From NCBI GenBank assembly GCA_947481575.1, contig CANKGV010000023.1, positions 1 to 37,621 on the forward strand: DNA of 37,621 nucleotides, read 5' to 3'. Shown here piece by piece: positions 30,089 to 31,669 of this stretch. A program made the translations under genes and the position numbers. Position 1 is the stretch's first letter; each line of letters starts with the position of its first letter. The notes below the pieces were generated by a model. That model ran no database searches. It had not been told where the DNA came from and saw only the letters and a program-made list of their open reading frames with translations. This DNA comes from Alphaproteobacteria bacterium (GTDB taxonomy: Bacteria > Pseudomonadota > Alphaproteobacteria > UBA2966 > CAIVPW01).

Positions 30089-31096
30089 TTAGTTCCCGGT
30101 CGTCAACACGATCTTGCCCACATGCGCGCGGGCTTCCATCCGGGTCTGGGCCTGGGCCGCCTGGGCCAGCGGAAAGGTCGAATCGATCGGCGGGACCATC
30201 CGGCCCGCGGCCAGCAAAGGCCACACGCGGGCCTCCAGTGCTGCCGCCAGGGCGCCCTTCTCTGCCACCGAGCGGGCACGCAGGACCGAGCCGAACAGCG
30301 TGATTCGTTTGAATAACGCCGGCAGCAGTTCCACCTCGCCCCGGCTCGCTTCGAGGAATGCGATCATTGCCAGGCGCCCGCGTGGTTTGAGGACATCCAG
30401 GTTCTGGCGCATGGCCGGAACGCCCAGGCAATCGAGCACCACGTCGACGCCCTCGCCGCCCGTTGCGGCCTTCACGGGCCCCGCGAAGTCGGCACCGGCG
30501 CGGTAAGGAATCGCGACCCGCGCACCGAAGGCACGGCATGCGACGCACTTGGCCTCCGTGCCCGCCGTCGCCAACACGTCGTGGCCCAGCGCTGAGGCGA
30601 TCTGGATCGCGGCCGAGCCAACGCCGCCGGAGCCGCCGTGAACCAGCAAGCGCTCGCCGGGCTTGATGGCGCCTTGGTCGAACACATTGGCCCACACGGT
30701 GAAATACGTTTCCGGCAGCGATGCGGCTTGGACTTCGGTGATGCCGTTCGGGATCGGCAGTGCCTGGGGTTCCGGGACGGCGGAGTACTCGGCGTAGCCA
30801 CCGCCGGCGACGAGTGCGCAGACATGGTCGCCGACCCGGTACCTCGTCGTTCCAGATCCCAGCGCGACCACGGTACCGGCCACTTCCAGACCGGGGATCG
30901 GCGTGGTGCCGGGAGGCGGGGCGTAGTGGCCTTTGCGCTGGAGAATATCGGGGCGGTTGATGCCAGCGGCGGCGACACGCACCAGCAGTTCGCCGGGGGC
31001 GGCGGCGGGTACCGGGATACGCACCGGCTCCAGCACCTCGGGTCCGCCGGGGGTGCGGATCGCGATCGCAGTCATGTGGGTGGGGATGGCAACCAT
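30089..31096 (-). CDS. NADPH:quinone oxidoreductase, zinc-free MDR family
   Basis: The 335-residue protein is a medium-chain dehydrogenase/reductase of the quinone-reductase/PIG3 type. It starts TAIAIRTPGGPEVLEPV, has GINRPDILQRKGHYAPPPG and PGLEVAGTV, and the NADPH site VHGGSGGVGSAAIQIA. The structural zinc cysteines of alcohol dehydrogenases are absent. It reduces quinones or related carbonyls with NADPH. The start is either 31096 or 31075 (MTAIAIR); the second is the usual family start, and neither has a clear ribosome-binding site. A CtrA box lies 19 bases upstream of 31096. Confidence 0.88.
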   Translation of the reverse strand: MVAIPTHMTAIAIRTPGGPEVLEPVRIPVPAAAPGELLVRVAAAGINRPDILQRKGHYAPPPGTTPIPGLEVAGTVVALGSGTTRYRVGDHVCALVAGGGYAEYSAVPEPQALPIPNGITEVQAASLPETYFTVWANVFDQGAIKPGERLLVHGGSGGVGSAAIQIASALGHDVLATAGTEAKCVACRAFGARVAIPYRAGADFAGPVKAATGGEGVDVVLDCLGVPAMRQNLDVLKPRGRLAMIAFLEASRGEVELLPALFKRITLFGSVLRARSVAEKGALAAALEARVWPLLAAGRMVPPIDSTFPLAQAAQAQTRMEARAHVGKIVLTTGN

Positions 31097-31114
31097 AGCG
31101 GCGGTTCTAGCGCG

Positions 31115-31130
31115 TTAATCCCGCGTTAAC
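31115..31130. promoter_or_regulatory. CtrA-type box
   Basis: TTAATCCCGCGTTAAC is an exact match to TTAA-N7-TTAAC, the full CtrA site of alphaproteobacteria. The reverse strand reads TTAACGCGGGATTAAC, also a match. It lies upstream of both the quinone reductase gene (minus) and the putative plus-strand small RNA. A GANTC site (GATTC, 31145-31149), the target of CcrM methylation, is 15 bases away. Confidence 0.6.
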
Positions 31131-31131
31131 C

Positions 31132-31210
31132 ATGTCCGCCCTAGGATTCACCGCATTAGACCTCCCTCGAAACACTTGGGCCGCCCCTTTCGGAGCGGCC
31201 CATTTTTTTT
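31132..31210 (+). ncRNA. Candidate small RNA with anti-SD stretch
   Basis: A strong plus-strand terminator ends here, but no plus-strand gene precedes it. The single-stranded stretch before the hairpin holds CCTCCCTC (31161-31168), which can pair with Shine-Dalgarno sequences, as in small RNAs of other alphaproteobacteria. The 5' end is a guess; no good -10 box follows the CtrA site. No homology claim is made. A 35-codon frame (ATG at 31132) exists but has no ribosome-binding site. Confidence 0.4.
31178..31210 (+). terminator. Strong Rho-independent terminator, plus strand
   Basis: GGGCCGC (31178-31184) pairs with GCGGCCC (31195-31201), followed by A and eight T (31203-31210). The T-run marks the plus strand. 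On the minus strand (downstream of hsp20) the hairpin is preceded by A8 and followed by AAGTG, so it is a poorer terminator there. Confidence 0.85.
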
Positions 31211-31240
31211 GCTTGGAGAACGAGGGGAGCGAAGTCTGAC

Positions 31241-31669
31241 TTAGGCCGTGAGGCGGGTCTCGATGGCCGGAGTGCCGATAGCGATCTTGCGCGGCTTCTG
31301 CTCTTCCGGAACCACGCGGATGAGGTCGATCTTGAGCAGACCATTGGTAAGGTCGGCGCCGGCGACTTTCACGTTGTCGCCGAGCTCGAAGCGGTGCTCG
31401 AAGCTGCCGGCGGCAAGGCCGCGATAGACGTAGGCGGCCGCATCAGCCTGTTCTTTGGCCTTGCCGGTGACCGTGAGTACGTTCTCGGTCTGGGTGATGT
31501 CGATCTCGTCCTGGCCGAAGCCGGGAACCGCGAGTACGACACGGAAGTTGTCGTCGTCCTTTCGCTCGACATTGTAGGCCGGAGCATCCGGCCCGGCGCC
31601 CTGGGGAGCGAACAGGTTGTCGAACAGATCAAACGCGGGGCGGTACGGGGAATAGCGATAGAGACGCAT
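31241..31669 (-). CDS. Small heat-shock protein (Hsp20/IbpA family)
   Basis: The 142-residue protein begins MRLYRYSPYRPAFDLFDNL and has an alpha-crystallin domain (about 33-125: YNVERKDDDNFRVVLAVPGF, then TVTGKAKEQ, FEHRFELGDNVKVAGADLTNGLL as consecutive parts) and an IxI-like tail (KIAIGTPAI). It holds unfolding proteins during heat stress. ATG 31669 is chosen over 31690 because GGAGG lies eight bases upstream. The ribosome-binding site is part of a ROSE-like hairpin. rpoH is in the same window, but I found no well-spaced sigma-32 promoter. Confidence 0.92.
   Translation of the reverse strand: MRLYRYSPYRPAFDLFDNLFAPQGAGPDAPAYNVERKDDDNFRVVLAVPGFGQDEIDITQTENVLTVTGKAKEQADAAAYVYRGLAAGSFEHRFELGDNVKVAGADLTNGLLKIDLIRVVPEEQKPRKIAIGTPAIETRLTA

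Follow-up and report, generated by a model that had tools for sequence, protein, structure and literature searches.

A predicted CtrA-activated small RNA gene related to RF02356 in the gap between qor and hsp20 of an alphaproteobacterium

The gap between qor and hsp20 in the 37,621-nucleotide stretch of DNA analysed here (the window) is best read as a small RNA gene: a CtrA-activated, 5'-shortened homologue of RF02356 (BjrC1505), divergent from qor, whose product would act in trans through an anti-Shine-Dalgarno stretch. We put the probability of this reading at about 0.78. The parts of the gene, their conservation together, the fixed spacing of the promoter, the synteny with qor, and the presence of CtrA and Hfq in the genome were established from the DNA, and are described below.

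The gap and its predicted promoter

The gap is about 140 bases long, and its plus strand contains in order the CtrA box, CCTCCCTC and a terminator hairpin followed by T8 (Table 1). Both qor and hsp20 are on the minus strand, and there is no plus-strand gene upstream of the RNA, as had been stated in an earlier note on this DNA, whose sequence elements were checked by coordinate and are all present exactly as written. The divergent neighbour of the RNA gene is qor, which it directly adjoins. The gene downstream of qor encodes TrcR, a transcriptional cell-cycle regulator (Pfam PF06242; 29313-29960, minus strand), which therefore places the RNA gene in a cell-cycle neighbourhood.

Table 1. Features of the qor-hsp20 region of the window
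Feature	Position	Strand	Basis
qor, zinc-type quinone oxidoreductase	30089..31075	-	Pfam PF00107, PF08240; zinc-binding dehydrogenase
CtrA full box TTAA-TCCCGCG-TTAACC, TTAATCCCGCGTTAACC	31115..31131	+	sole exact place in genome; family conservation
-10-like hexamer TAGGAT	31142..31147	+	27 nt from box start; family/class consensus TANNNT at 26
Predicted small RNA, ~57 nt	31154..31210	+	start inferred from -10, end from T-run; covariance match; predicted fold
Anti-Shine-Dalgarno stretch CCUCCCUC (CCTCCCTC)	31161..31168	+	predicted unpaired; CCTCCCT invariant in 7 family members
Rho-independent terminator, GGGCCGC...GCGGCCC + T8	31178..31210	+	sequence, fold, both-side stem changes in relatives
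hsp20	31241..31669	-	Pfam PF00011 (HSP20); convergent neighbour of RNA gene

In alphaproteobacteria, CtrA is the master regulator of the cell cycle. A true CtrA, with 71% identity to that of Caulobacter, is encoded in the genome, and so is Hfq. The box reads TTAATCCCGCGTTAAC at 31115-31130 on the plus strand and TTAACGCGGGATTAAC at 31114-31129 on the minus strand, so that the reverse strand likewise reads TTAA-N7-TTAAC, confirming the exact motif reported earlier on both strands. This is the only exact place for TTAA-N7-TTAAC in the whole 2.45-Mb genome, and shuffling the window gives an expected count of 0.00 for the box.

The first base of the box is about 38-39 nt before the predicted RNA start, with the -10 at an offset of 26-27, and the spacing of the -10 in the window is one base off that in the class (27 vs 26 nt). 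In Caulobacter, a full CtrA motif begins at -39 in an activated promoter of ctrA, and at -14 in repression by CtrA (PMC4287350). The window therefore has the arrangement of the CtrA-activated promoters of Caulobacter, namely TTAA-N7-TTAA with its 5' base near -39 followed by a -10, with the difference that its start site is one predicted from sequence (PMC4287350).

The earlier note also proposed a role for CcrM methylation. A GATTC is indeed found near the box, at 31145-31149 (plus strand). GANTC is depleted in the window (74 found vs 132 expected), as one might expect of an organism that employs GANTC methylation. A CcrM-regulated promoter should have a conserved GANTC, and at the promoter position GANTC is absent from the other six family members, being found in 1/7 (the window genome only). 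Because there are 74 GANTC sites in the window and none at that position in the other six, the GATTC here is not more than chance, and CcrM control was rejected on the grounds that the site is not conserved.

Conservation and structure of the element

The gap was found in seven genomes of the family, namely the window genome, G001 and G003-G007. All seven have the same order of box, -10-like hexamer, CCTCCCT, and hairpin with T-run. The box is exact in 6/7 of these gaps (window included) and has one mismatch in G007, while in the six members other than the window a TAGGGT, TACGTT or TATATT hexamer stands in every case at an offset of exactly 26 nt from the first base of the box. No change is seen among the family members in CCTCCCT or in GGGCCGC...GCGGCCC; the earlier note had suggested conservation of the C-rich stretch as a check, and in CCTCCCT it is complete (7/7). 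The distance from box to core is 82-112 nt in the six relatives vs 45 in the window, which has the shortest, and G003-G007 share a 5' domain between box and CCTCCCT.

Exact TTAA-N7-TTAA sequences are rare: each of eight family genomes has 0-5, and in six of these genomes one is located in this gap. The other exact boxes in the family are beside ctrA/fliI, flgB/fliO and an rnd/kpsF-like pair (names read from translations), which indicates that the motif marks CtrA-type targets in the window's family. The ctrA/fliI and flgB/fliO pairs are classic CtrA targets. The exact box between the ribonuclease D-like and KpsF-like genes is conserved in five family genomes (L108, L111, L112, L116, L117), and would be an unexpected CtrA-type target.

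The terminator stem is formed by GGGCCGC (31178-31184) and GCGGCCC (31195-31201), followed by T8 at 31203-31210. The hairpin has a predicted folding energy of -19.6 kcal/mol (z -4.1), and the 58 nt from 31155 to 31212 fold with z -4.4, with 0/200 shuffles as good. In relatives, both-side changes are seen at 4/8 pairs of the stem. A standard terminator scan listed nothing in the qor-hsp20 gap. CCTCCCTC, which the earlier note placed in a C-rich loop, is in the predicted fold a 5' stretch left unpaired, and not a hairpin loop. CCUCCCUC is computed to pair fully with AGGGAGGU at -14.1 kcal/mol. The element combines a predicted unpaired anti-Shine-Dalgarno sequence with a Rho-independent terminator, as in an anti-Shine-Dalgarno small RNA. 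It is single-copy in its genome, and a mobile repeat was rejected for this reason; weak DNA matches outside the gap in G001 resemble ordinary gene terminators.

We looked through 385 genomes for TTAA-N7-TTAA-N53-83-CCTCCCTGT, requiring neither the terminator nor the -10. There were 22 matches in 19/385 genomes, covering 15 genera, vs 2 for the reversed pattern, although, with several loci belonging to sister genomes, these do not amount to 22 independent cases. As judged by eye, a hairpin-like stretch with a T-run follows in 21/22; the one locus without a terminator (L281) was taken as a chance match. TANNNT is located exactly 26 nt from the box start in 17/22, and at any other offset in only 0-1. 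qor is within 1.5 kb in 13/22, and across the class the box and the RNA remain paired even where a further gene separates them from qor. Among cultured relatives, loci of Sneathiella, Roseibium aggregatum and Rhodopseudomonas (L149, L185, L203) carry the element, and the RNA predicted there would measure roughly 95-110 nt. Some genomes (G015, G222, G388) contain two copies, and on contig 6 of G388 two RF02356-like copies (L280, L293) lie in tandem about 200 bases apart, each with its own CtrA box.

Relationship to RF02356

RF02356 (BjrC1505) is an established RNA family that has received little study; Madhugiri and colleagues are said to have detected BjrC1505 experimentally in Bradyrhizobium and Rhodopseudomonas in 2012. 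The window element scores 18.7 bits against Rfam RF02356, which is below the gathering cut-off of 50, and the element in the sister genome G001 scores 28.1 bits. It resembles RF02356 in its CCTCCCT core, its GCCGCC-type terminator, its CtrA box and -10 at fixed spacing, and its divergent synteny with qor (the synteny was observed here and is not a Rfam criterion). It differs in having neither the 5' hairpin ending in CTGTTTGACG before the core nor the TGTTTGACG stretch, with about 7 nt from the predicted start to the core. In addition, in numerous relatives a further small gene precedes qor, whereas the window element is directly beside it. Because it is below the Rfam threshold and without the 5' domain, the window element is not filed as a strict member of RF02356; core, synteny and promoter indicate that it is a homologue.

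A scan was made of the DNA upstream of 80 qor genes in named genomes, for which qor was the sole criterion of choice; the set did not extend to the window's own family. Ten alphaproteobacteria have CTGTTTGACGCCTCCCTGTT (or nearly so), a GCCGC hairpin and a T-run upstream of qor, and are RF02356-like. These ten loci were selected by CCTCCCT and a terminator upstream of qor, and the box was not used; a box with at most one mismatch is nevertheless present 81-90 nt before the core in 9/10, where 0.66 would be expected. In the whole-genome set, 11/11 RF02356-like or qor-linked loci have a box with at most one mismatch (expected 0.72). Intact copies match RF02356 in Rfam, and canonical RF02356 matches carry the CtrA box; sub-threshold RF02356 matches without CCTCCCT in relatives, such as a tRNA-like stretch in G082, were left out.

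A covariance model of the core was made from 26 sequences, with the window genome left out and no promoter in it. This held-out model matches the window at 31148-31209 (36.2 bits, E 8.2e-9), and its best match in the window genome is the same element (E 5.4e-7). Together with the elements kept jointly in family and class, this match supports the earlier note's suggestion that the plus strand encodes an autonomous small RNA bearing an anti-Shine-Dalgarno stretch. Its further suggestion of a CtrA box ahead of the RNA is borne out by the box, fixed-spacing -10, core and terminator being kept together in family and class, and by the CtrA encoded in the genome.

Alternative readings of the gap

The box is nearly palindromic and lies 39 nt from the qor start, and the hairpin comes just after hsp20. 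It could therefore be argued that the box serves or represses qor, that the hairpin is only the hsp20 terminator, and that there is no separate RNA gene. However, only towards the RNA does the box have the spacing for CtrA activation. In the direction of qor, none of the seven family genomes has a TANNNT at that distance, and a qor promoter driven from the box was rejected because there is no -10 on that side; in two sister genomes the qor start codon is moreover just 37-38 nt from the box start. Given these spacings, the box most likely activates the RNA. As for the hairpin, the earlier note named its working only as the end of hsp20 as an outcome that would speak against an RNA gene, but the strong U-tract in the window is on the plus strand (8 T of 10, vs 4 of 10 towards hsp20), and the box and the core are conserved along with it. 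Three sister genomes have a decent T-tract on both sides of the hairpin (T6 on the hsp20-side strand), so that it may end both convergent transcripts, hsp20 included in some sisters. The conservation of CCTCCCT and the -10 to the right of the box, and the class-wide pairing of box and RNA with a gene between them and qor, likewise argue for a separate RNA gene, and this alternative is improbable.

If the RNA is real, it might still converge with hsp20 in function as well as position, acting as an antisense or sponge of the hsp20 mRNA, and not on Shine-Dalgarno sites elsewhere. The RNA does overlap the 3' region of hsp20, and a mirror sequence, GAGGGAGG, follows the terminator in 5/7 family genomes. 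The mirror is however degenerate in the window (GAGGGGAG) and absent in G007, the same RNA core is found elsewhere in the class where hsp20 is not placed in this way, and the conserved part is the anti-Shine-Dalgarno stretch. We consider such a role very unlikely. At the mirror itself (31221-31228 in the window; L070-L075), the hsp20-side strand has its own CCTCCCTC before the same hairpin, and mirror plus hairpin make up a palindromic twin module at the 3' end of hsp20.

There is also little probability that the RNA is an alphaR8 RNA (RF00519, MmgR/SuhB) under constitutive or stress control, with the CtrA box incidental. RF00519 is the top Rfam match for the element, and both share CCTCCCT and ACTTGGGCCGC; like MmgR of S. 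meliloti and SisA-D of Caulobacter, the window RNA would have an anti-Shine-Dalgarno CCUCCCU before a GC-rich terminator (PMC12559287). But the score is 26.3 bits against a cut-off of 41, and the best RF00519 match in the same genome, at 33.7 bits, is a flagellin terminator. The window reads AGACCUCCCU where alphaR8 has the 10-mer UUUCCUCCCU, and has no hairpin before it, while alphaR8 genes are without a CtrA box: across thirty canonical alphaR8 loci none was found at a fixed place. The synteny with qor is that of RF02356. The low score, the lack of the 10-mer and of the hairpin, and the difference in promoters led to the rejection of RF00519 membership. It does count against the reading as a CtrA-activated RF02356 homologue that CCTCCCT is short, and common to other alphaproteobacterial RNAs without the box. 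So do the low RF02356 score, the absent 5' hairpin domain, the one-base shift of the -10 and the kinship of many genomes behind the class-wide loci. A third type of anti-Shine-Dalgarno RNA, ACGTCTCCCAGACGTGAAGCCTCCCTGTT followed by a terminator, is widespread and has no CtrA box (L125-L128, L242, L248, L252, L253), and a look-alike of it occurs in the window's own family, on contig 250 of G007 (L128). Because alphaR8 and the ACGTCTCCCAGACGTGAAGCCTCCCTGTT type share the core and not the box, the CtrA box goes with the RF02356-like lineage.

Proposed function and significance

In the preferred reading, phosphorylated CtrA would bind the full box, which begins some 39 bases ahead of the predicted start, and would activate the promoter with the -10 TAGGAT. 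Transcription would head away from qor, timed by the cell cycle, and stop at the GGGCCGC/GCGGCCC hairpin with T8. The resulting short RNA would expose the unpaired CCUCCCUC, which would pair, probably with the help of Hfq, to AGGGAGG-type Shine-Dalgarno sequences. It should in this way lower translation of a set of mRNAs with a matching Shine-Dalgarno sequence at the time when CtrA is active.

To our knowledge, connections between CtrA and small RNAs have mostly come to light as individual cases in Caulobacter and Sinorhizobium. Such RNAs have been demonstrated or predicted in both (PMC8959179, PMC5988900, PMC7143759). The window RNA is like CcnA of Caulobacter (PMC8959179) and GspR and EcpR1 of S. 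meliloti (PMC7143759) in being tied, by prediction, to the CtrA/GcrA circuit. These three act on ctrA, gcrA or dnaA mRNAs, and are set apart from the window RNA by that description. Our search of the openly readable literature, to which the original BjrC1505 paper does not belong, found no report of a CtrA link for RF02356/BjrC1505, and a CtrA-type promoter kept with an RF02356-like RNA across the class appears to be unreported in the literature searched.

A wider proposal, which we offer tentatively and at slightly less than even odds, is that RF02356 is an ancient post-transcriptional arm of the CtrA regulon of alphaproteobacteria, in which a CtrA-induced anti-Shine-Dalgarno RNA damps the translation of numerous mRNAs during one fixed cell-cycle phase; the window would hold one of its most reduced versions. 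The link between CtrA and RF02356 is directly testable in culturable relatives. If it is true, a regulator would be assigned to an RNA family for which none was found in the literature searched, and the CtrA regulon would gain a general post-transcriptional branch.
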